A stretch of DNA of 64,000 nucleotides from Candidatus Pseudothioglobus singularis PS1. Lineage in GTDB: Bacteria > Pseudomonadota > Gammaproteobacteria > PS1 > Pseudothioglobaceae. Below are positions 6,569 through 20,304 of this stretch, piece by piece. The stretch is taken from positions 868,001 to 932,000 of the forward strand of contig NZ_CP006911.1 in the NCBI RefSeq assembly GCF_001281385.1. Direction: 5' to 3'. The position numbers and the translations under genes were made by a program. The notes beneath the pieces were generated by a model that had not been told where the DNA came from, searched no databases, and saw nothing but the letters and a program-made list of their open reading frames with translations. Positions within the stretch are counted from its first letter, which is position 1. Every line of letters begins with the position of its first letter.

Positions 6569-6668
6569 TTGGTGCGCTCGAGGTGATTCGAACACCCGAC
6601 ATTCGGCTTCGGAGGCCGACACTCTATCCAGCTGAGCTACGAGCGCAATATTTAGTTGATACGCCGCA
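6569..6668. repeat. Left 100-bp direct repeat (att-type), contains tRNA-Arg
   Basis: Identical over 100 bases to 20205-20304. It covers the complete tRNA-Arg plus 22 bp of its 5' flank. Immediately beyond, the two copies still resemble each other (a one-base indel, then GTTCAGTG). The pair brackets the integrase and its cargo, as expected for attL/attR of a tRNA-targeting element. Confidence 0.9.
6570..6646 (-). tRNA. tRNA-Arg (CCG), left copy
   Basis: 77 nt including an encoded CCA end. The acceptor stem GCGCTCG pairs with CGAGCGC; the D arm (GCTCAGCTGGATAGAGT), the anticodon stem TCGGC/GCCGA with loop CTCCGAA giving anticodon CCG, and the T arm GGTTCGAATC-type loop (GTGTTCGAATCACC) are all present. 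Identical to the copy at 20206-20282, so both look functional. Confidence 0.93.
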
Positions 6669-6868: not shown

Positions 6869-6888
6869 GTTTCAGAATAAACTACAAT
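6869..6888 (+). promoter_or_regulatory. Shared promoter-like module
   Basis: A 20-bp block ending in the -10-like TACAAT (6883-6888), with TTGGAC 18 bases upstream (6859-6864). An exact inverted copy lies at 13889-13908, also just before a start codon. The -10-like box ends only 7 bases before the ATG at 6896, too close for a normal leader. Confidence 0.5.
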
Positions 6889-7270: not shown

Positions 7271-7666
7271 ATGAAAAAACTACTCCTACTGCTCTTCTCA
7301 CTGACACTTAGTTATAGTGCTCTTGCTGATAACATTGTGACAGGCACTTGTGTCGCTAATGTTCGTGAAGGTGGAATACAACTTCTTGGTGCCAGTAATA
7401 TTATTGAAGGTTCTGAGTTATTTTCTGTTTGTGAGGAGGGAGATATTTTGAATCTGAGTGGGTTTAGGTTTTATGACACACCAGAATATACAGATATTCT
7501 TGACGCTCTTGACTTCCCAGAATGGGAAAAAATTACAGAAAGAGAACTTAATAATAGTTCAGAAAAATTTAATCTATCACTTTATATGGCAAGATATTGT
7601 GACCTTAAAGAAACACACATTATAGGGAATGAAATCCTAGTTTGTAAATTAGTAGATAGAGATTAA
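7271..7666 (+). CDS. Small secreted hypothetical protein
   Basis: 131 residues with a clear signal peptide (MKKLLLLLFSLTLS, cut after SALA). Mature part of about 112 residues has five Cys, compatible with disulfides in the periplasm. No family recognised. The start ATGAAAAAACTACT is shared nearly letter for letter with several other cargo genes in the island. Follows the membrane-anchored gene by 9 bp, likely one transcript. Confidence 0.6.
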   Translation: MKKLLLLLFSLTLSYSALADNIVTGTCVANVREGGIQLLGASNIIEGSELFSVCEEGDILNLSGFRFYDTPEYTDILDALDFPEWEKITERELNNSSEKFNLSLYMARYCDLKETHIIGNEILVCKLVDRD

Positions 7667-7830: not shown

Positions 7831-9126
7831 TTAGTTATCATTATAGTTATCTATATTGAATACCTCTTCAGATAACACTCTTCTATTTATATAAGGTGTT
7901 ACATCCTTCATATTGTCTACTAACTCTTTATACTGAATTGGCACTATAAAAGAATCATAAATAGTGAGACAAGGTATTTCTCTCTTAGTAAGCTCCATTA
8001 CAACTTCGAAGACTATGTCAGATTCCCAGCAGCTTATGAAGTCGCCATAGATTTTTCCGTTGTTATAGTACTTAGCAATCTTTGGGTGTTTACTTAAGAT
8101 TGCTTTAGCTATGTCAGTAGACTTTACTTTCTTCTTAAATTCAATATATTCTTCGTGCTTTTTAATGTCTTTAGCTTTAGGATTTTTAACTTTAAGGGCT
8201 TCATATTTATAATGATTAATGACTGAATGAGCAGTTCCTAAAACTGAATTACTACCCTGCATAAATGTGGAGAAATTCTTAGCGATATGCCTTGGTACTG
8301 GATAACCATCAACAATAATATAGTAAGGGTCATCGTCATAAGGATATGGTGCTCCAGTGATCACTTGATACATAGCATTTAGATGTGATGCATCTCGGTC
8401 TAGCTCAATTGTTGGCTGACCATCAATAGTTATATTCTTTCTGAGCTCTGATGATAGATTAACCCAAGGACCGGGCATCCTTCCGCCATAGGCAAACTCA
8501 GTATTCTCACCTTGATGTTTATGCCTAATAAATTTCCTCTGAATGGTGAACTTCTTGAACTCTCTATCTTCAGTACCATCATCATTTAAAAGAACAATCC
8601 TACTATTGCTAAGAAGTTGGTCATACTGTTTAATTTCTTCACTTAGCCACTTGGAGTAGTCAGTGTCTTCATAATCGATATAAGATTGCTTTCCATTATC
8701 TTTTTTAGCTTTTCTGAGGGTGATATAAGTCCCAACTCTTTTGTCTATGCCCTCGTCTGACCATTCAGTGTTTTCAAACCACTGCAATAGCTTGTCAGTA
8801 GGCATCATAGTGGTTCGTTTATTCTCGTCAAAATCCCCTAATTCTTGAACGATATAGCCATTGCTCTCAAGAGCATCTAGTGACGAAATGATTGAACTAT
8901 AACCAATCCCCAATGGATTGTATCTTTTGCCTCCTAAGGGTTGCTTTTTACGAGAGACCATAACCTTTCTTTGACCTTGTATGAATAGATTACATAACAG
9001 CAGTTTTAGAGCCTTAAATTGACTCTTTTGCCTCATTCCAAGGTCTTTGCCTAGTTGGCTTGATAACTCCTCTAAATGAGGCATATTGACGTCTAGAAAG
9101 AGGTCTATTTTAGGTATATGAGCCAT
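7831..9126 (-). CDS. Putative replication protein with family-A-polymerase-like motifs
   Basis: 431-residue protein with no confident name. Residues 65-115 look like a winged helix (YSSIISSLDALESNGYIV). Further on, three motifs occur in the order and spacing of family A DNA polymerases: ELDRDASHLNAMY (241-253, motif A-like, Asp then S-x-L), RHIAKNFSTFMQGS (279-292, like the O-helix RxxAKxxxxxxxG) and TIYDSFIV (388-395, motif C-like, Asp-Ser in place of Asp-Glu). No exonuclease domain. Being in an integrase-bearing island, it may replicate or repair the element. An unrelated phage-type protein remains possible. Confidence 0.5.
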   Translation of the reverse strand: MAHIPKIDLFLDVNMPHLEELSSQLGKDLGMRQKSQFKALKLLLCNLFIQGQRKVMVSRKKQPLGGKRYNPLGIGYSSIISSLDALESNGYIVQELGDFDENKRTTMMPTDKLLQWFENTEWSDEGIDKRVGTYITLRKAKKDNGKQSYIDYEDTDYSKWLSEEIKQYDQLLSNSRIVLLNDDGTEDREFKKFTIQRKFIRHKHQGENTEFAYGGRMPGPWVNLSSELRKNITIDGQPTIELDRDASHLNAMYQVITGAPYPYDDDPYYIIVDGYPVPRHIAKNFSTFMQGSNSVLGTAHSVINHYKYEALKVKNPKAKDIKKHEEYIEFKKKVKSTDIAKAILSKHPKIAKYYNNGKIYGDFISCWESDIVFEVVMELTKREIPCLTIYDSFIVPIQYKELVDNMKDVTPYINRRVLSEEVFNIDNYNDN

Positions 9127-9186: not shown

Positions 9187-9423
9187 TTAATCCACTTGTC
9201 CAGGTGTGTATGCCTCCCCACCCGGAAATACTCCGGGATTAGTCTCCATTAGCCATATCCCAAAAATCGTTGAGGCAACAATAAACAAAACAGGGATAGA
9301 GAATAGGATTAGGATAACTTTTCCTAACTTACGATATTTTGTGAGCTTTATGAAAAATAGCCCAAAGAAGAAGAGAAATAACCATCCTGGGTAAAGTGGA
9401 ACTGAATTGAGGAAGTTAATCAA
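9187..9423 (-). CDS. Small membrane protein, tandem copy 1
   Basis: 78 residues, two membrane helices separated by a basic loop with KLTKYRKLGK. It is a close paralogue of the next gene (9420-9644; identical first 15 residues MINFLNSVPLYPGWL) and of 21570-21791 outside the island (shared TKYRKLG). The start codon is TTG, overlapping the upstream TGA stop as TTGA. Relative to the tail remnant at 9645-9682, the stop has mutated and the protein runs on four residues. Function unknown. Confidence 0.6.
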   Translation of the reverse strand: MINFLNSVPLYPGWLFLFFFGLFFIKLTKYRKLGKVILILFSIPVLFIVASTIFGIWLMETNPGVFPGGEAYTPGQVD

Positions 9424-9644
9424 GGTGTATCCCAGAAACTATCTTGAAGACATACCCACATATCAGAGCACGAAGTAAGCCAAAAGGCAAGAGAAGCAGT
9501 CACTACAATAAATGGAACAAAAAATAGAATTATCAGCGTAATACCTGTCTTCTTATAATTGGTAAAGTAATGTAGAAGCATTCCATAGAAAGGAACAAAT
9601 AACCATCCTGGATAAAGTGGAACTGAATTGAGAAAGTTAATCAA
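9420..9644 (-). CDS. Small membrane protein, tandem copy 2
   Basis: 74 residues, two membrane helices, TTG start overlapping an upstream TGA. The N-terminal half is nearly identical to copy 1, while the C-terminal end diverges and has two Cys (SCSDMWVCLQ). The start/stop overlaps on both sides show that the unit was duplicated in tandem as a coupled gene. Function unknown; by form it could be an inner-membrane accessory, a small toxin or an immunity protein. Confidence 0.6.
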   Translation of the reverse strand: MINFLNSVPLYPGWLFVPFYGMLLHYFTNYKKTGITLIILFFVPFIVVTASLAFWLTSCSDMWVCLQDSFWDTP

Positions 9645-10676: not shown

Positions 10677-11255
10677 CTAAATAAAATAATATTTTTGAAT
10701 ATCATCCCATAACCCATATTCATCAAGTAATTCAGTTGCACGCTCACTGCCTTGCCTATGAGCTAAATTAATCCAATGTGCCGCCTCTAAATTCGATTTT
10801 GGAACGCCTTGACCTTTATAATGCATTATTCCTAAATTACATTGGGCATTAGCATTGCCTGGTCCTTTTCTGGAGTCACTACAAATACTTAATGAAGAGT
10901 TTGAAGCCATTAGAAACCACATAAAAGCCTCTTCATAATCTATATCAACTCCAAGCCCTTTGAGATATATCACTCCCAAGTTATTCTGTGCAGAATCGTA
11001 GCCTTGCTCAGCTGCTTTACGAAACCAAAAAATAGCTTTTTCAGAATCTTCGGAAGTGCCTTTGCCACTCGAATGCAAGAAACCTAGATTGAATTGACTA
11101 GTAATATGTCCTTGGAAAGCCGCCTTGGAAGTCCAATAAAAAGCTTTATCATCATCTTGGGTGACACCATCACCTTCATAATACATATTGCTTAAATCCC
11201 ACTGAGCTTTTAAATCACCTGCTTCAGCATCTTTTATTTTTTGTTGAATCTTCAT
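10677..11255 (-). CDS. Sel1-repeat protein
   Basis: 192 residues with at least four Sel1-like repeats of 36 residues (GDLKAQWDLSNMYYEGDGVTQD, HITSQFNLGFLHSSGKGTSED, YDSAQNNLGVIYLKGLGVDID, NAQCNLGIMHYKGQGVPKS). Unlike the Sel1 gene at 9689 it lacks a signal peptide, so it is probably a cytoplasmic protein-binding scaffold. ATGA overlap with the 49-residue gene upstream indicates coupled translation. Partner unknown. Confidence 0.75.
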   Translation of the reverse strand: MKIQQKIKDAEAGDLKAQWDLSNMYYEGDGVTQDDDKAFYWTSKAAFQGHITSQFNLGFLHSSGKGTSEDSEKAIFWFRKAAEQGYDSAQNNLGVIYLKGLGVDIDYEEAFMWFLMASNSSLSICSDSRKGPGNANAQCNLGIMHYKGQGVPKSNLEAAHWINLAHRQGSERATELLDEYGLWDDIQKYYFI

Positions 11256-11401
11256 TTGCCCTCCTTGTTTGAAAGGACAACATTTTTATTTTTGCTTGAG
11301 TTTTTATCTTTTTTGACTGGTCTTTTGACCGTTGCGATTAACCATCCACTCTTAAAAAGAGGGTGGTCCTCAGGTAACTCGCGATATATTACTTTACCCA
11401 T
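11252..11401 (-). CDS. Small basic protein, 49 residues
   Basis: ORF with a strong GGAGG seven bases before ATG and a TGA that overlaps the ATG of the Sel1 gene. The product begins MGKVIYRELPEDHPLFKSGW and ends in a Lys/Asn-rich tail; no Cys, no membrane helix. The ribosome binding site and coupling are the evidence that it is real. Function unknown. Confidence 0.55.
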   Translation of the reverse strand: MGKVIYRELPEDHPLFKSGWLIATVKRPVKKDKNSSKNKNVVLSNKEGK

Positions 11402-11426
11402 TTGACTACCTCCGTTTTAGTACTTT

Positions 11427-11487
11427 AAGGAAAATCCTAGGGCGACAATAGGAACAAATGCCCAGTTCGTGAGGTGAACTATTCCTT
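11427..11487 (-). promoter_or_regulatory. Candidate three-way-junction leader RNA
   Basis: Nested pairings: AAGGAA/TTCCTT (11427-11432/11482-11487) encloses GGGC/GCCC (11440-11443/11460-11463) and AGTTC/GAACT (11464-11468/11476-11480), the inner two abutting. It ends about 25 bases before the ORF at 11252-11401, so on the minus strand it would be a structured 5' leader. Not a class I recognise. Confidence 0.35.
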
Positions 11488-11542
11488 TAATTAAGAAGAA
11501 TTATATACCTATTTTCTATTGTAATATTTAACAGTAATGCTA

Positions 11543-12022
11543 TTATTTTTCTTTTGTTCTGTATATGAGTATGCCAGCAATAACAATACTCATAAGTAAT
11601 CCCGCAATGACTGGTCCCAAAGCATCAAACATCATTATGAGAAAAAATATTGCAAGAATAATTAAAATAACCTTGAATCCATCGCCACTCTGACTTTGTG
11701 CTGCAGAAACAAACTTTGAGTAATTTTTCTCAGATTCAATCCTCTCACCTGCAACTTCTCTAATTTTACTAATTGCCTCAGAGGGTGAAATTTTAAAAAA
11801 TTCCCTGTCTTCTCTATATCTAGAGCCTATTAATTGCCTATGCACTTCTAATTCAACATCCTCATAATCTTCTGTTAAAGCCCTGTATTCAAGAACAAAA
11901 TCTTCAAGAACTCCAGTTGTGCTAAGGTCACGCCTTCTTTTCTCTGGGTCTTTGCTTGATTGACCAATCTTTACAAGACCAGGGTGAGCAGGGTTTGACA
12001 TAACGTAGATAAAGCCAATCAT
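11543..12022 (-). CDS. T5orf172/GIY-YIG-type nuclease domain with two C-terminal membrane helices
   Basis: 159 residues. Residues 1-80 match the T5orf172 (Mug113) branch of the GIY-YIG superfamily: GFIYVMSNPAHPGLVKIGQS, PEKRRRDL, ELEVHRQL and REDREFFKI hold the expected Tyr, Lys-Ile-Gly, Arg, His and Glu positions. A linker follows, then two membrane helices (about 118-152). This is a nuclease-like head tethered to the inner membrane on the cytoplasmic side. It is the last gene of the 13881-11543 operon, two bases after the MORN gene. Confidence 0.75.
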   Translation of the reverse strand: MIGFIYVMSNPAHPGLVKIGQSSKDPEKRRRDLSTTGVLEDFVLEYRALTEDYEDVELEVHRQLIGSRYREDREFFKISPSEAISKIREVAGERIESEKNYSKFVSAAQSQSGDGFKVILIILAIFFLIMMFDALGPVIAGLLMSIVIAGILIYRTKEK

Positions 12023-12024
12023 AA

Positions 12025-12741
12025 TTAACCTTTAATTGAAGTACATTTACCATCTTCGCACATATACTCAGATGTTATCTCTCCTTTCTCATTCCATTCA
12101 ATATACTTTCCTGTAAATTTGCCCTCATCATTTCTATTTATCTCACTTTGCTTTTGGCCATTCTCATACCAATTAGTTTCTTTACCAATAGAGAGACTAT
12201 TTTTGTAATTGAACTCATATGCTTTATTACCATTTTCACGCCACAAAGTACTTTTCCCATCTAAATTACCATTCTTCCAATGCTCTTCTCGCCAAATCTG
12301 GCCATTTTTAAACCAAGTTATATATTTTCCATCTTTAATACCGTTTGGCCAATTTCCTTTCATTTTCATTTGGCCATCTGGATACCAGCTAGTTGATGTT
12401 CCAAATAACTTTCCATCCTTAAGATACTCTATTGTATCAAGTTGTCCATTCCTATACCACCAAGTTGATTTACCATCTAACTTACCATTTTTAAGATTTA
12501 CTTTGGTTGCATATTGACCATATGCATCTTTATAAACACAGATACTAGTGGCTGTAATTCCTACTTCTTGATTAGGAAAAAAATAAACATTGACAGAGTT
12601 ATATTCATCTATTTTTTCAATTCTTGTTTGGACATTTGGTTGCTCATAACAAAAGTCACTTAAAGAAAAATCTAAATGTGAGCTTCCATAAGAATTAAAA
12701 GAAAGCACTAGAGAGAAGAGTAGTAGCAGTAGTTTTTTCAA
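12025..12741 (-). CDS. Secreted MORN-variant (YwqK-like) repeat protein
   Basis: 238 residues: signal peptide (LKKLLLLLFSLVLS, TTG start), then six repeats of about 23 residues with W-Y/F-x-N/D-G-Q followed by G-x-x-x-G-K, the MORN-variant pattern annotated as YwqK-family antitoxin in other bacteria. The TTG start overlaps the preceding TGA stop. A paralogous repeat set makes up the first half of 16156-17817. The repeats form a beta-solenoid-like surface; partner unknown. Secretion argues against a cytoplasmic antitoxin role. Confidence 0.75.
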   Translation of the reverse strand: MKKLLLLLFSLVLSFNSYGSSHLDFSLSDFCYEQPNVQTRIEKIDEYNSVNVYFFPNQEVGITATSICVYKDAYGQYATKVNLKNGKLDGKSTWWYRNGQLDTIEYLKDGKLFGTSTSWYPDGQMKMKGNWPNGIKDGKYITWFKNGQIWREEHWKNGNLDGKSTLWRENGNKAYEFNYKNSLSIGKETNWYENGQKQSEINRNDEGKFTGKYIEWNEKGEITSEYMCEDGKCTSIKG

Positions 12742-13364
12742 CTTTCTAATTCTTTTTTAATTTTATTAGCTAGCTCATAGTTTTGATTTTTATTAGCCTT
12801 TATAAGCTCTTTCTGCAACATTAAAACTCTTTCATTTTCTTGTTCAAGTGCACTTTCCTCCTCTTCCTTTTTTTCTTCATCAGAGTCAAAAATGTCATAA
12901 GGATTAGGATATGACTTGCTAAGATAATCTGCAGCCCATTTTGGATATGGAAACAGTTCAGATGACTCCCACCTTAACTTTAAATAGAGTTTTCCTAGGG
13001 CTGTATTTCTAAATTTACTTTCCCCAATTCTATCACCTCTTGATTTTCCAAAAGGTAGCCAGGTAGAGGGTATATTCTCTTTCTTTTCCCATTCGGCTCT
13101 TCTTTTAAAAATTGCACATACATTCTTAGGCTCTTCGGGCTTGGAGTCTTTATTTGTAAATTCATCCCAAACAATATTCTCTGGAAAACAATATTCTTCA
13201 TATTCTTTATATAAAGACAAATCTAGAAAATAAATATCACTTTCTTCAAGAGCAGCTTGCTTATCCAATAAATTATCATTTTTTTCAGATATTTGGCTTA
13301 CTTTTTTTCTTAAGTCATCTAATTCTTTTCTTGCAGATGAAAGATTACTATATTGACTTATCAT
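12738..13364 (-). CDS. Coiled-coil hypothetical protein
   Basis: 208 residues, soluble. An N-terminal coiled coil (about 1-40), a central Trp/Tyr/Pro-rich globular part (about 45-165; TWLPFGKSRGDRIGESKFR, LKLRWESSELFPYPKWAADYL), then an acidic helix and a C-terminal UVR-like hairpin (LQKELIKANKNQNYELANKI). No family recognised. ATGA overlap with the upstream gene and TTGA overlap with the MORN gene place it firmly in the operon. Confidence 0.6.
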   Translation of the reverse strand: MISQYSNLSSARKELDDLRKKVSQISEKNDNLLDKQAALEESDIYFLDLSLYKEYEEYCFPENIVWDEFTNKDSKPEEPKNVCAIFKRRAEWEKKENIPSTWLPFGKSRGDRIGESKFRNTALGKLYLKLRWESSELFPYPKWAADYLSKSYPNPYDIFDSDEEKKEEEESALEQENERVLMLQKELIKANKNQNYELANKIKKELES

Positions 13365-13660
13365 TGCTCATCCTTTTCGAGATTGGGAGCTTGCTTTAAA
13401 AATTCATCCAAAACATCAAACATATGATGTTCTCTTGAGAGGTAAAGGTATTTGTTATATCTTTTTGCTTCAGCAAGCTTTTTTGCTATTGTTTTATTTG
13501 ACTTTTCAGTTATCTCAACCCAATTCTTTAAGCTTTTAAGGCCTTCTTCAAGATTTGATAGCTCAATACTCATAGTATCTGAATCGTTTTTCTTTCGCCA
13601 AGATGAGTATAAAAAAAAGGCAATCAATAAGAGAAGAATTAAAATGATATTTTCAGACAT
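13361..13660 (-). CDS. Membrane-anchored coiled-coil protein
   Basis: 99 residues: one N-terminal membrane helix (ENIILILLLLIAFFLYSSW), then about 75 charged residues with heptad-like spacing. Probably anchored with the helix pointing into the cytoplasm (positive residues RKK after the anchor). Two-base gap to the upstream gene and ATGA overlap with the next. Function unknown; likely a partner of the other coiled-coil operon products. Confidence 0.55.
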   Translation of the reverse strand: MSENIILILLLLIAFFLYSSWRKKNDSDTMSIELSNLEEGLKSLKNWVEITEKSNKTIAKKLAEAKRYNKYLYLSREHHMFDVLDEFLKQAPNLEKDEQ

Positions 13661-13662
13661 TT

Positions 13663-13881
13663 TTAATCTTTAAACCTCTCTGACAAACTTAATACTTTTT
13701 CTCTGTATTTAGAAATTTTGACTGAATGCTCATCAAACATTTTCTTGTCTTTTAAATTGTAATCATATATTTCTTTCTTTAAGCGTTCAAATTCTGCCTC
13801 AGCTGAATTGAGCCTGTTTAAATATATTTGAGATTCAGACTTGAGCTTTTGTATTTTTTCAAGTATTTCAATTAATTCCAT
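13663..13881 (-). CDS. Small coiled-coil protein
   Basis: 72 residues, almost entirely predicted coiled coil (EILEKIQKLKSESQIYLNRL through KYREKVLSLSERF). First gene of the five-gene operon 13881-11543. The start codon lies eight bases after the TACAAT of the promoter-like module at 13889-13908, so its message may be leaderless. Function unknown. Confidence 0.5.
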   Translation of the reverse strand: MELIEILEKIQKLKSESQIYLNRLNSAEAEFERLKKEIYDYNLKDKKMFDEHSVKISKYREKVLSLSERFKD

Positions 13882-13888
13882 ATTAACA

Positions 13889-13908
13889 ATTGTAGTTTAT
13901 TCTGAAAC
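13889..13908 (-). promoter_or_regulatory. Shared promoter-like module, inverted copy
   Basis: Exact inverted copy of 6869-6888. On the minus strand it ends in TACAAT eight bases from the ATG at 13881. A diverged version (19079-19098) lies between the integrase stop and the pilin gene. Confidence 0.5.
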
Positions 13909-13951
13909 TAAATACCACCCTTAACTAGATTAATAAGACTCGACTTATGCT
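13909..13951 (-). pseudogene. Partial copy of the integrase 3' end
   Basis: Matches the last 12 codons of the integrase plus its stop, in frame (KSSLINLVKGGI-stop against KSTLINRVMGGI-stop), and continues into the promoter-like module found after the real integrase. The upstream gene's own stop (GCA TAA) is formed at the join, so the copy begins exactly at the end of the macro-domain gene. Confidence 0.65.
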
Positions 13952-14550
13952 GTTAATAAACTTTGATGTGATTGATATATTTCTTCAAAGCTGGAAATCC
14001 TTGCAGGCTCTTTGATTAGCTTGTAAGCAGCCCTCATCTGTGCTGCACATTTAACAGGCTCCATAGAACCTATACCAGTCCCTAAACCAGAGCATATAAG
14101 AGACTTTATTGGTCTTTTGGGCTTAGACTCATTAAAGCTATTTATAGCAATCAGAATAGCTCTAAAGGCGATATACGCATTTAGAGTATAAGCAACATTC
14201 TCAGGTATTCTCATAGTCGGTGCTGCAATCAAGTAGCTCCATTTGTTATGGTTAGTATTTATAATCTCAGCTGAACCAATTGGCATCTCACCGTGGTATT
14301 TCTTAAGAATAACTTCTTGAATGTCTTTCTCAACTTGAAAACCTAATTCATTTCTGATGGCTAAATCAAGCCCACCATCCATTATTCCAAAGCTGTTTGC
14401 AGGGCTCACAATCGCATCTGCACTTTGTTGAAAGTAGTCACCTGTAAGAACTTCTACCTCAGGAAAGCCAGAGAATACTTGCCTCCACTTATCGCACAAT
14501 TCTAGTTTTGAATCAATTAAATATAGCTTCTCTAATTTTGTATTTATCAA
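13945..14550 (-). CDS. Macro-domain protein
   Basis: 201 residues, soluble. The macro fold is shown by VLTGDYFQQSADAIVSPANSFGIMDGGLDLAIR (residues about 36-68; AIVSPAN and the GGLD loop bind ADP-ribose) and CSGLGTGIGSM (about 152-162, phosphate-binding loop). Close to the phage-type macro-domain group. Likely binds or hydrolyses ADP-ribose or ADP-ribosyl groups. Start is TTG at 14550 with AAGGAG nine bases upstream. Its last codons run into the integrase remnant. Confidence 0.8.
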   Translation of the reverse strand: MINTKLEKLYLIDSKLELCDKWRQVFSGFPEVEVLTGDYFQQSADAIVSPANSFGIMDGGLDLAIRNELGFQVEKDIQEVILKKYHGEMPIGSAEIINTNHNKWSYLIAAPTMRIPENVAYTLNAYIAFRAILIAINSFNESKPKRPIKSLICSGLGTGIGSMEPVKCAAQMRAAYKLIKEPARISSFEEIYQSHQSLLTA

Positions 14551-14562
14551 TTGTTATTCTCC

Positions 14563-14832
14563 TTATGTTTTAGAGGCCCAAATGCCACGAACACCATTAT
14601 GTTCGACAAATAATTTAGTTAAATCTTCTGAATCTTTATGTCGGATAAATCCATCTGATTCTTTCAACTCTCCATCCCTGATTAATCGGTTGATAACCAG
14701 CTCATAGTCTATAGTCTGATAATCGAGATTTATATTCGCCAATAAATGCAAGAACATACTTTTTCTAATGACTCTTCCTTTTATTTTTGCTGTTATTAAA
14801 TCTTTAATGAAATCTATATCTAAGTAATGCAT
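14563..14832 (-). CDS. Small hypothetical protein
   Basis: 89 residues from ATG at 14832, chosen because GGAGG lies six bases upstream; the frame is open to 14874. The product (MHYLDIDFIKDLITAKIKG) looks helical and winged-helix-like in its middle (YELVINRLIRDGELKESDGFIR), which would suit a DNA-binding or anti-repressor role, but this is weak. Twelve bases ahead of the macro-domain gene, likely co-transcribed. Confidence 0.5.
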   Translation of the reverse strand: MHYLDIDFIKDLITAKIKGRVIRKSMFLHLLANINLDYQTIDYELVINRLIRDGELKESDGFIRHKDSEDLTKLFVEHNGVRGIWASKT

Positions 14833-15021: not shown

Positions 15022-15927
15022 TTAACGCTTGTGTTCATTTAATTTGAAATCAACTTGATAAAGAAATACTTCGATATTAGGAGTCATTTCTTGCGCATAA
15101 TCAAGTTTCTCATCGAATTTACCAGCAACAATTATTCCTTTGACTTCAGGGTCACCCAGTTTTTTCTTTATCCAACCCATATATCTGGTTACCTGACCAA
15201 TAGTCTCATCACTTGTTTGTTTTCTTTTTAACTCAATAACTACATAACTTCCATCTTTCTTATCTTTAGCAAGAATATCCATTATTCCAATATCTGTACG
15301 ATACTGCTGACTTATTAATTCACCTTCTTCATAGATAAGGTCATATTTTTTTCCTAATTCTGTTTCCTCCCAATTTCGAATAATAAAATCCTCTAATTGC
15401 TGCTCCATATAAAAAAGTCCAGTGCTAATGACTGATGTTTCATCTTTTAAATCTATATCCATACACTCTTTGTAATAATCAACCAAAGAATCTAATTCTT
15501 CTGTCATTTGCTTCTTAGAGACCTCCTTCCCATCTCGAAGATAATTAACTTCCTCTCCATTAACAATCGGCTCATAATGCTCACAAACATATGAGTTTCC
15601 GTATCTGAAAGGATTATCTATAAACTCATCTATTCTTTGCTTAGATGAATGAATTTCAGAGTTCCAGCTGTCAGCTTCAACACTCTCACCTATCCCATAT
15701 GCAAGTATCAATATGTTTTCTTGCTTATAAAATAAATAAACTGGGTAATAGCCATTTGATGTGCCAACATCTGGAGCAACAACCTGTACCCAAGGGATTT
15801 TAGATAGAGTTCCCTGACCAAAAGAAACCCTTAACCTTAAGTTAGAATATTCTTTGGGGTAATGTTTCACTTTTTGACCACCAGTTTTGGTTTGTTTTAC
15901 AAAATCATCTAAGAAATCTATTGACAT
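15022..15927 (-). CDS. MrcB-N-like domain fused to NucS/EndoMS-like nuclease
   Basis: 301 residues. The N-terminal 120 residues (RLRVSFGQGTLSKIPWVQVV, YPVYLFYKQENILILAYG) resemble the MrcB/McrB N-terminal DNA-recognition domain (DUF3578). The C-terminal 130 residues match the NucS/EndoMS PD-(D/E)XK fold: Asp217 in GIMDILAKD, Glu232 and Lys234 in VVIELKR, then QVTRYMGWI. A recogniser plus a nuclease in one chain suggests a single-protein restriction or anti-phage factor. AAGGA precedes the ATG. Island context agrees. Confidence 0.75.
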   Translation of the reverse strand: MSIDFLDDFVKQTKTGGQKVKHYPKEYSNLRLRVSFGQGTLSKIPWVQVVAPDVGTSNGYYPVYLFYKQENILILAYGIGESVEADSWNSEIHSSKQRIDEFIDNPFRYGNSYVCEHYEPIVNGEEVNYLRDGKEVSKKQMTEELDSLVDYYKECMDIDLKDETSVISTGLFYMEQQLEDFIIRNWEETELGKKYDLIYEEGELISQQYRTDIGIMDILAKDKKDGSYVVIELKRKQTSDETIGQVTRYMGWIKKKLGDPEVKGIIVAGKFDEKLDYAQEMTPNIEVFLYQVDFKLNEHKR

Positions 15928-18346: not shown

Positions 18347-18449
18347 AGCTATAATTTCATTTGAACAAAGAGTGTTGTTTCATAATAGAGCTATTACTGA
18401 AGTGAAACTTAGTATACGACCTATATGGTCTTAGGTCAAATTGAAACGA

Positions 18450-18545
18450 AATACCGCCTATCACTTGATTAATAAGTGTCGACTTATGCTCTATACATAG
18501 ATGAGCATAACTCTTAGTAACTCGATGAGGGTGAATCCCCTTTTT
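18450..18545 (-). pseudogene. Hybrid remnant: pilin start joined to integrase 3' end
   Basis: 18518-18545 copies the start of the pilin gene with one inserted G. 18450-18517 copies the last 23 integrase codons (VTKSYAHLCIEHKSTLINQVIGGI), with the stop codon changed. The open frame 18357-18557 covering it is therefore a junction artefact, not a gene. A TATACT box follows at 18411-18416. Confidence 0.65.
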
Positions 18546-18559
18546 TATTTTAAGCATAT

Positions 18560-19051: not shown

Positions 19052-19096
19052 TTTTACTTCCTGTAGATGTTTAATTTATTGTAGTTTATTATGATA

Positions 19097-20098
19097 CTAA
19101 ATGCCACCCATAACTCGATTAATAAGTGTTGACTTATGCTCTATACATAGATGAGCATAACGCTTAGTCACCTCTATTTGCTTATGACCTAAGACATCTG
19201 CTATCTCAAGAAGAGTTGCACCGTTCTGAGCTAAATAGGATGCTGTAGTGTGTCTTAAATCGTGGAATCTAAAGTCTTCGAGTTCTGCATCTTTAACTGC
19301 CCTTTTCCAAGGTTTATAAAAGACATAAGGTTTTGACGGGGTAATCTTGGATGCAAATATTAGAGAGCTATCATTCTGATTAAATAATTGAAGCTCATTA
19401 ATCACATCAATTGTTAGAGGCAGAACTTTAGCCTCTCCATTTTTAGTATTATTGATATATGCCACTTGTTTCTCAAAGTCTATGTCATTCCATCTTAAAT
19501 TCAGTAGCTCTCCCCTTCTCGCTCCTGTTGTAATTGCCATTAAGGCAAGTAAATAGAGCATCTCCCATTTTGAAGCTCTACAAGCTCTAAATAGGCGTTT
19601 TCTCTCATTATCTGATAGATATCTTGTCCTTCCCTTCTTTTCAGGCAGAGAGCGTATATATCGCGTTGGATTCTCAGTTAGACCCAGCTCTCTGATTCCA
19701 TAGTTAAAGACAACCGATGCGAGCTTCTTGTATTTATTAATGGTTGCGTTACTGAGCTCATTTGGCAGTTTGTCTAAACCTGAGTTAATATCATCTTTAC
19801 CAATATCATTGATGGGCATCTCTCCCATATGATTAAGCCAGTACTTCAGTCTACTTCTTTGCATCTGCGGCTTAGTCCCTAGGTACTCTTTACTTAGATA
19901 CATTTCTACAAGAGTACTAAAGGTTAGCTTAGAGCTATAGGCTCTATGAGCACTCTTACTCTCTTCTATCCTAAGAGCAAAGCGTCTTGCGTCTTGCTTA
20001 TGGGTAAAGGTTTTAAAGATGTTGGGAAGTCCTTTCCTGCGTATCTGGACGCGGTAAGAGACGCCCTTCTTGTTCATTAGTTTTTGTATTGTTGCCAT
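19097..20098 (-). CDS. int: Tyrosine recombinase (phage/island-type integrase)
   Basis: 333 residues. N-terminal arm-binding domain (SYRVQIRRKGLPNIFKTFTH), core-binding domain (about 60-150), catalytic domain with Arg194 (TGARRGELLNLRW), Lys about 224, His279-x-x-Arg282 (HDLRHTTASYL), His305 (VLGHKQ) and nucleophile Tyr314 (VTKRYAH). All catalytic residues are present, so it is probably active. Its start lies 107 bp from the CCA end of the right tRNA copy, the normal layout for a tRNA-integrating element. Confidence 0.93.
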   Translation of the reverse strand: MATIQKLMNKKGVSYRVQIRRKGLPNIFKTFTHKQDARRFALRIEESKSAHRAYSSKLTFSTLVEMYLSKEYLGTKPQMQRSRLKYWLNHMGEMPINDIGKDDINSGLDKLPNELSNATINKYKKLASVVFNYGIRELGLTENPTRYIRSLPEKKGRTRYLSDNERKRLFRACRASKWEMLYLLALMAITTGARRGELLNLRWNDIDFEKQVAYINNTKNGEAKVLPLTIDVINELQLFNQNDSSLIFASKITPSKPYVFYKPWKRAVKDAELEDFRFHDLRHTTASYLAQNGATLLEIADVLGHKQIEVTKRYAHLCIEHKSTLINRVMGGI

Positions 20099-20204: not shown

Positions 20205-20304
20205 TTGGTGCGCTCGAGGTGATTCGAACACCCGACATTCGGCTTCGGAGGCCGACACTCTATCCAGCTGAGCTACGAGCGCAATATTTAGTTGATACGC
20301 CGCA
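20205..20304. repeat. Right 100-bp direct repeat (att-type), contains tRNA-Arg
   Basis: Identical to 6569-6668. The tRNA 5' flank continues into host sequence here, so this copy has the native promoter side, while its 3' side adjoins the integrase. Confidence 0.9.
20206..20282 (-). tRNA. tRNA-Arg (CCG), right copy
   Basis: 77 nt, identical to 6570-6646, CCA encoded, anticodon CCG in the loop CTCCGAA. Probably the original chromosomal gene position, rebuilt by the inserted element's own 3' part. Confidence 0.93.

Follow-up and report, generated by a model that had tools for sequence, protein, structure and literature searches.

SNIPE, also known as PD-lambda-1, was reported to cut phage DNA during injection (Nature 2026, PMC13190303), and PD-lambda-1 was the subject of an earlier paper (Nat Microbiol 2022, PMC9519451). 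As outlined in the 2026 report, its chain consists of an N-terminal membrane anchor, DUF4041, a helix and a C-terminal nuclease; DUF4041 was required both for defense and for DNA binding, the E414A substitution abolished defense, and the view put forward there is that place, not sequence, can separate phage DNA from self (PMC13190303). The T5orf172 genes of phage ICP1, as presented in PMC10448857, are read as homing endonucleases that are often located near essential phage genes, e.g., terminase, and in their proteins the nuclease domain and a predicted DNA-binding part occupy opposite ends, such parts being described for the Gp88/Odn type (PMC10448857, PMC8263062). Among the papers listed in literature searches, none besides those on SNIPE and the 2022 paper (PMC9519451) was seen to describe a membrane-tethered T5orf172 protein.

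The protein compared here is the product of the last gene (gene 5) of a five-gene operon, located in a 64,000-nucleotide stretch of Candidatus Pseudothioglobus singularis PS1, a marine bacterium of the SUP05 type; the stretch is called the window below. It resembles SNIPE in having a GIY-YIG head with an apparent equivalent of E414, together with a membrane segment and a predicted cytoplasmic location of the head. However, gene 5 is without DUF4041, its head comes first and its anchor last, which is the reverse of SNIPE, its 159 aa compare with PADLOC models of 491-496 positions, and its head is far from the SNIPE heads in a tree. Given the absence of DUF4041 and the anchor at the opposite end, gene 5 is not SNIPE, but it may work like SNIPE, i.e., as a membrane-located, cytoplasm-facing nuclease cutting incoming DNA. 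DUF4041 (PF13250) was not found in any of the five operon proteins down to an E value of 1; the same model found the domain at loci L065, L066, L129, and L131 and missed it at L070 and L128, both of which are PD-Lambda-1 by PADLOC. Because the head and the hydrophobic tail fill gene 5, the protein has no room for DUF4041. A DUF4041 search of 29 genomes of the genus gave no match, yet it detected none of 14 controls and is therefore uninformative.

The best PADLOC match of gene 5 is PDC-S57, a T5orf172 type that we take to be only a candidate family in PADLOC; gene 5, however, covers just part of this model, and soluble phage proteins match it equally. With the phage genes (ICP1 Gp88/Odn) gene 5 has the T5orf172 domain in common, but it possesses a hydrophobic tail, whereas the ICP1 proteins have DNA-binding parts. 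A Pmp3-T5orf172 fusion from a Salinibacter ruber plasmid (L089) is likewise small (163 aa) with two hydrophobic segments, although its anchor is N-terminal and belongs to the Pmp3 family.

Operon, island and upstream element

The five minus-strand ORFs (Table 1) are joined, from gene 1 to gene 5, by a 2-nt gap, two successive 4-nt overlaps and another 2-nt gap, in agreement with the coupled operon described in the first-pass annotation. Codon usage favors the annotated frame for genes 2-5 (for gene 5, 0.175 in frame versus at most 0.018 in the other frames). For gene 1 it does not decide between the annotated frame (0.070) and another one (0.073).

Table 1. Features of the operon and of the element that carries it, in coordinates of the window
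Feature	Position	Strand	Description
Left 100-bp direct repeat with tRNA-Arg(CCG)	6569..6668	minus	one element boundary
Gene 5	11543-12022	minus	159 aa; T5orf172/GIY-YIG head (~1-100) and C-terminal hydrophobic stretch 110-157
Gene 4	12025-12741	minus	238 aa; TTG start; apparent signal peptide and MORN_2 repeats
Gene 3	12738-13364	minus	208 aa; helical ends; orphan
Gene 2	13361-13660	minus	99 aa; N-terminal membrane anchor, then charged segment; orphan
Gene 1	13663-13881	minus	72 aa; orphan rich in charged residues; coiled coil possible; weakly supported as coding
TCAGAATAAACTACAAT promoter-like conserved element	13889..13905	minus	TACAAT ends 7 nt before gene 1 ATG
Older integrase 3' end, remnant	13911..13952	minus	matches integrase residues 320-333; also DNA repeat family D2
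Tyrosine recombinase	19097..20098	minus	Phage_integrase PF00589, E 5.9e-32
Right 100-bp direct repeat with tRNA-Arg(CCG)	20205..20304	minus	other element boundary

Coiled coils are possible in genes 1-3 on the basis of composition and, for gene 3, also of a low-confidence single-sequence fold (mean pLDDT 55) with long helices at both ends. The UVR-like tail once proposed for gene 3 was dropped, as a Pfam search down to E 1 gave no UVR domain. Hydropathy assigns a single anchor to residues 1-19 of gene 2. For the secreted MORN protein that had been proposed as gene 4, the repeats are confirmed by profile (MORN_2, PF07661, E 1.6e-16, 58.9 bits versus a cutoff of 29.6, in 5 stretches), and the apparent signal peptide was assigned from the sequence itself. 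PHROGs returned "Rz-like spanin" for gene 2 (E 9.3e-4) and for gene 1 (E 0.077), matches that are read as likeness to an anchor-plus-helix arrangement and are no proof of a spanin.

All five genes are carried by a 13.6 kb element that lies between identical 100-bp tRNA-Arg repeats, with the integrase starting 106 bp inward from the right copy. With an integrase beside one tRNA copy and the tRNA repeated at the far end, this has the layout of a tRNA-targeted integrative element, so that the island setting suggested earlier is borne out by both repeats and integrase. Also encoded in the island are a macro-domain protein and a protein of the McrB_N/NucS type (PDC-S02, E 2.2e-46).

The operon is preceded, in this order, by the decayed 3' end of an integrase and a TACAAT element, after which gene 1 begins. 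The integrase remnant, at 71% identity and E 0.29 alone, is weak by itself. The element, which may function as a promoter, was matched in 17 of 58 genomes (28 places), compared with 9 (10 places) for a reversed control. A promoter scan of positions 11200-14700 gave 12 promoter-like sites versus 13.7 in shuffles, the element before gene 1 not being among them, and a scan of the same interval for minus-strand terminators found none. A TACAAT or TATAAT located 5-8 nt before an in-frame ATG occurs in 1 of 16 island ORFs and 0 of 48 outside, where ORFs of at least 90 aa were taken and gene 1 was thus left out; because other TATAAT permutations score equally (maxima of 1 in the island and 2 outside), this count alone is uninformative.

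Head and tail of gene 5

The head of gene 5 matches T5orf172 (PF10544) with E 3.5e-13 and 50.4 bits versus a cutoff of 20, as well as MUG113 (E 1.6e-9). Alignment of gene 5 with 13 homologues (14 rows) gave 13 invariant columns, which include Y6, K18, G20, R29, E57, E74, F75, and F76; the catalytic assignment among these residues is presumed from SNIPE and from general knowledge of the fold. E57 aligns with residue 414 of the SNIPE homologue L066 and with E363 of L070, and hence is the apparent equivalent of SNIPE E414. Gene 5 would thus be predicted to be an active nuclease.

In PADLOC, residues 3-102 of gene 5 match positions 6-105 of the 212-position PDC-S57 model (E 1.9e-26), and PD-Lambda-1 is matched at positions 356-455 of the profile only (E 2.6e-4); two relatives from the genus, L051 and L052, match PD-Lambda-1 at 1.1e-9 and 1.0e-8, respectively. 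These matches indicate the domain rather than defense, because the soluble phage homologue L054 scores as well, equaling gene 5 on PDC-S57 (6.6e-26) and surpassing it on PD-Lambda-1 (1.1e-8). Comparison of the modeled head with known structures placed GIY-YIG first (VIA Z 7.2; At-HIGLE, Slx1), a modest score within the range that the tool calls common. With Foldseek, the 11 best rows were Slx1, At-HIGLE, or UPF0213 (E 0.09 to 0.8), none of the rows for the gene 5 model reaching E 0.001. A profile of the homologues searched against PDB sequences gave kinase rows only, at E 0.18 or worse, which are attributed to chance.

The tail consists of a 48-residue hydrophobic stretch (residues 110-157) with two hydropathy peaks, followed by RTKEK, and is probably a membrane hairpin, by which the head would face the cytoplasm at the inner membrane. 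In the structure model, by contrast, residues 115-158 form an unbroken helix of low confidence (50-70 in blocks of ten), and a hairpin is not resolved. The nuclease head claimed at the outset is upheld by the T5orf172 match and the conserved residues, and of the claimed membrane helices hydropathy supports a hydrophobic tail; a similarity to anti-phage nucleases (PDC-S57, PD-Lambda-1) stands as well.

Hydropathy was likewise the sole measure in a survey of membrane tails. An ORF was obtained at 25 of 30 T5orf172 loci, and four had a hydrophobic segment, three of the SNIPE type (L065, L066, L070) and one head-first (L081). Among 21 further loci other than the present one, the head-first order is seen in L125, with two segments, and in L133, with one, and the SNIPE type in L128, L129, and L131; the ORF at L136 is doubtful. 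The relatives L051 and L052 have one C-terminal hydrophobic segment each.

Recurrence and competing explanations

Each of the five genes was searched singly in 58 genomes. Genes 1, 2, and 3 were found in 0 of the 57 other genomes; gene 3 was also not found in the 368 other genomes of the class (369 searched) and gave no match in plasmids or phages. Relatives of gene 5 (43-44% identity) occur in two further genomes, at loci L051 and L052, among 29 of the genus, neither of which has genes 1-4 beside the nuclease, and the neighbors of gene 5 differ across the three SUP05 loci. The absences are provisional, because genome searches can miss relatives; a PF10544 query returned 0 candidates for gene 5 in its own genome despite an hmmscan value of 3.5e-13. 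The recurrence expected of five genes acting as one conserved system was thus looked for and not found in the searched genomes, which, within that scope, is the outcome that the first-pass annotation had named as refuting. Of the new five-gene module that had been suggested, the nuclease and the island stand, whereas a conserved five-part system is not supported by the searched genomes; the remark that it matched no recognized system finds a partial answer in SNIPE, which was published in 2026 (PMC13190303).

In viral contigs, genes 2, 3, and 5 gave no match as single queries. The three-row alignment of gene 5, used as the query, matched six phage contigs and two genome contigs. The closest heads found, at 46-49% identity, are encoded on contigs of marine phages, where they precede terminase genes. 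The phage-contig homologues have no hydrophobic segment. Although 291 phage and 44 plasmid records matched gene 5, none covers 80% of it. In the head tree, the three SUP05 heads group with five heads from phage contigs at a support of 80/88, and the SNIPE heads lie far off; supports of 91/93 and 80/88 are below the star level of the tool.

The explanation preferred here, tentatively and with a confidence somewhat short of even, is a cargo operon centered on gene 5 that is carried by the tRNA-Arg island and supplies a SNIPE-like membrane nuclease against entering DNA. The five genes would form a single coupled cargo operon behind the decayed integrase 3' end, and the working part would be gene 5, a phage-type T5orf172 nuclease in which a membrane hairpin replaces the soluble tail of the phage relatives. 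The hairpin would place the cutting head on the cytoplasmic side of the inner membrane, with the tether keeping it away from the host chromosome. We infer a defensive role with foreign DNA as the target, in that gene 5, like SNIPE, would most likely cut such DNA on entry and so protect either the cell or the island. Because the shared operon is their sole tie to the nuclease, genes 1-3 and the exported MORN_2 protein would be at most accessory, or unrelated cargo.

It seems somewhat unlikely that the whole operon is accidental cargo, i.e., unrelated orphans without joint function behind an integrase end and a promoter, gene 5 being perhaps a homing-type nuclease with a chance hydrophobic tail. 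The lack of detected relatives of genes 1-3 is consistent with this possibility, as is the finding that other genomes (L034, L040, L044) have an integrase end followed by this element too, but with different cargo behind it; moreover, gene 4 comes from a type common in the genus, a large and shifting set of apparent exported proteins. Gene 5 itself, however, does not look decayed, because its relatives in the two other genomes carry a hydrophobic segment at the C terminus, its codon usage is good, and its active-site columns are intact. A self-spreading homing endonuclease with an incidental tail would accord with the position of the nearest heads upstream of phage terminase genes and with the reading of the ICP1 genes, often near terminase, in PMC10448857; nevertheless, it is quite improbable, as gene 5 consists, beyond its head, of a short linker and the hydrophobic stretch, and a Pfam search at E 1 gave no DNA-binding domain.

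The tight coupling of all five genes could also reflect a five-part membrane complex, in which genes 1-3 form a scaffold anchored by gene 2, the MORN_2 protein is a periplasmic sensor and gene 5 is the cutter, that is, a split and extended SNIPE-like nuclease at the injection site. SNIPE is described as holding its parts on one chain (PMC13190303), and parts of similar kinds occur here on separate chains. At each of the 3 SUP05 loci, moreover, a gene that overlaps the nuclease gene or lies no more than 2 nt from it encodes a product starting with an apparent signal peptide. This complex is judged improbable. Genes 1-3 are absent beside gene 5 in both relatives and show no detected similarity to SNIPE parts, although a divergent DUF4041 could escape detection because the Pfam model misses the clear SNIPE homologues L070 and L128; the pairing with exported proteins may be due to chance, because such genes are common in these genomes. 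MORN_2 proteins are elsewhere annotated as YwqK-type antitoxins, a label that would suit interbacterial conflict waged with an exported MORN_2 protein and a nuclease toxin. This alternative is highly improbable, given that gene 4 is apparently exported and the nuclease apparently not, that no export or delivery signature was seen on gene 5, and that the nuclease in L051 and L052 stands beside non-MORN genes.

A 159-residue protein of head and hydrophobic tail, with relatives on mobile islands and a similar protein beside terminase genes, would offer a way to ask whether tethering alone suffices, in contrast to the DUF4041-needing SNIPE. It also suggests phages' own genes as a possible source of such nucleases, and the operon illustrates a way in which cargo may collect on the small islands of a streamlined marine lineage, behind an integrase end that bears a promoter-like element. 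A broader proposal, which we regard as unlikely, is that gene 5 represents a minimal class of entry-blocking nucleases that combine a phage-derived T5orf172 head with a C-terminal hairpin, lack DUF4041, arose separately from SNIPE, and occur on SUP05 tRNA islands and beside terminase genes of a probable prophage, where they would act in superinfection exclusion. If true, this proposal would mean that membrane tethering of a phage nuclease alone can tell self from incoming DNA. In favor of the gene 5-centered explanation, the relative of gene 5 in L052 has its ATG 51 nt after a tRNA-Arg(CCG), a tRNA cluster is 0.8 kb away from the end of that in L051, and in another Pseudomonadota genome (L125/L137) a head with two C-terminal segments is adjoined by small- and large-terminase genes.

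Coupling of the operon and spread of its genes

We regard the nuclease encoded by gene 5 as a small variant, deserving attention, of a type of defence that was described only recently. The five ORFs of its operon, which lies in a single-contig genome of 1.71 Mb, were found where the first-pass annotation had placed them and are coupled: genes 1 and 2, like genes 4 and 5, are separated by 2 nt, and gene 3 overlaps each of its neighbours by 4 nt; codon usage backs genes 2 to 5 and leaves gene 1 undecided. Lossy searches of 58 genomes returned genes 1, 2 and 3 from their own genome only, as did those of 369 class genomes for gene 3; likewise lossy searches found neither gene 2 in viral contigs nor gene 3 in viral contigs, plasmids or phages. 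Gene 4 has matches in 30 of the 58 genomes, its own among them; many of these rest on MORN_2 repeats, and some cover the signal peptide alone.

Gene 5 has matches in five of the 58 genomes, namely its own, two others among the 29 of the genus (G024 and G004) and two distant ones; the genus relatives belong to a SUP05-cluster bacterium (family Pseudothioglobaceae) and an uncultured gamma proteobacterium. The G024 relative (locus L051) begins 1 nt after an Adhesin_E/TonB_2-type gene with a signal peptide of the gene-4 kind. In G004 (locus L052), the ATG of the relative lies 51 nt past the end of a tRNA-Arg(CCG); at its 3' end the relative shares 4 nt with a small gene whose product apparently carries a signal peptide. 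Genes 1 to 4 were not found beside either relative by lossy search of 10.9 and 16.4 kb, respectively, the neighbour check being limited in L051 by a contig that starts 2.5 kb before the gene. The suggestion that all five genes form one system, possibly a new defence or conflict module, is thus not upheld on present evidence; the searches behind the negative results are lossy, and the absences are provisional.

The gene 5 protein compared with SNIPE

The T5orf172 head of gene 5 keeps the usual residues. Its AlphaFold model (residues 1-100) scores 79-93 in blocks of ten, with one block at 51, and GIY-YIG structures rank first against it with modest scores. The tail is hydrophobic over residues 110-157, with peaks of 2.83 and 2.53, a G-P between them and a following RTKEK, a pattern suggesting a hairpin with both ends cytoplasmic. 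In a tree of 19 heads built without L056, the sixth phage head, the three SUP05 heads form a group (support 91/93) whose closest partners are five phage heads (80/88); neither support reaches the tool's star level.

Hydrophobic segments are absent from all six phage-contig proteins with a gene 5-like head. A small-terminase-like ORF follows downstream on the same strand in all six contigs, at short distance in L053-L056 and at 1.3 to 2.4 kb from the head gene in L058 and L057; PHROG 309 (small terminase) matches were obtained in the four contigs tested, L053, L056, L057 and L058 (E 9.1e-13 to 1.8e-15; 4.8e-15; 1.7e-12), and the large terminases of L053 and L054 match Pfam Terminase_6N (E 3.6e-19 and 8.1e-24). 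Another Pseudomonadota genome encodes a 200-aa protein made of the head and two C-terminal segments, about 0.4 kb from a PHROG 309 small terminase (E 2.9e-18) and near a Terminase_3 large terminase (E 2.2e-34), both on the opposite strand; the locus is probably a prophage.

The SNIPE report describes a GIY-YIG nuclease of the inner membrane that cuts phage DNA during injection, whose defence is abolished by E414A or by loss of DUF4041, and which becomes toxic when its anchor is removed (PMC13190303). Gene 5 shares with SNIPE the nuclease, an apparent equivalent of the glutamate E414 and a membrane segment, but it lacks DUF4041 and its parts are in another order. We refuse to call gene 5 a SNIPE; the reading we favour, at somewhat less than even chances, is that it would work like one. 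Genes 1 to 4 could conceivably stand in for DUF4041. Separately, a Salinibacter plasmid (L089, 2782-3273) carries a Pmp3 membrane domain fused to a T5orf172 head, probably another small tethered nuclease.

The tRNA-Arg element and its cargo

Because tRNA-Arg repeats bound the element and an integrase lies at the right copy, we take the element to be tRNA-targeted and the operon to be part of its cargo.

Features of the element and its surroundings
Feature	Position (strand)	Remark
Perfect 100-bp repeat with tRNA-Arg(CCG)	6569-6668; 20205-20304	two copies, 13.6 kb apart
Integrase	19097-20098	start 106 bp inside right repeat copy
Conserved motif ending in TACAAT	6872-6888; 13889-13905; 19078-19094	window copies
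Integrase residues 310-333, repeated	18521-18450	inside element; E 5.4e-9
Integrase residues 320-333, repeated	13952-13911	just before gene 1; E 0.29 alone, yet a DNA repeat
Pilin-like gene start fused to integrase 3' end	18442-18552 (-)	
Shared gene start	12691-12741 (-); 7271-7321 (+)	near-identical
McrB_N-like and NucS-type protein	15022-15927 (-)	PADLOC candidate PDC-S02, E 2.2e-46
Macro-domain protein	13945-14550 (-)	close to PHROG 2613, E 3.6e-53
431-aa protein	7831-9126 (-)	PHROG 4756, E 1.4e-33
Small hydrophobic ORF pair	9187-9644 (-)	adjacent

The McrB_N-like protein is a possible restriction-type defence gene of the same island, and the macro-domain protein stands immediately upstream of the operon. 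The PHROG of the 431-aa protein has no assigned function; for the protein itself Pfam returned no hit at E 0.01 and the PDB none that was convincing. It is perhaps, as a guess, the element's replication protein. The small hydrophobic ORFs share identical first 16 residues (a DNA repeat family).

Recurring gene starts

Between the integrase remnant and gene 1 lies TCAGAATAAACTACAAT, with TACAAT 7 nt ahead of the gene 1 start. The same arrangement, with an ATG after 6-7 nt, recurs in three loci that differ in their cargo gene: in L040 and L044 it follows complete integrases (about 56% identity), in L034 an integrase tail. There are exceptions: 26 nt separate the motif behind the intact integrase of the window from the following gene start; L049 has tail and motif, yet its first 40 nt hold no ATG; L042 matches the tail weakly (E 0.37) and no tail match was found in L043, where, as in L042, the first ATG opens few codons (5 in L042 and 9 in L043); L039 has motif and cargo, with an ATG after 5 nt, and no integrase match; and the copy at 6872 precedes a gene start by 7 nt without an integrase tail. 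The motif pattern matched 17 of the 58 genomes versus 9 for the reversed control, and its exact matches, nine places in that search, all fall within the genus. Our reading is that cargo accumulates behind an integrase end with a promoter; both the promoter, possibly carried by the integrase end, and the leaderless start are inferred. The pilin-integrase fusion is apparently a deletion scar from a duplicated integrase-pilin pair.

A further, near-identical start, ATGAAAAAACTACT...CTCTTCTC, encodes a signal peptide like MKKLLLLLFSL. It occurs at 25 places in 13 of the 29 genus genomes (L017 and L091-L114; none for the reversed control), before various genes whose products seem to be exported, MORN_2 and Adhesin_E types among them (some of these assignments were made by eye), and looks like a signal-peptide start that is reused.
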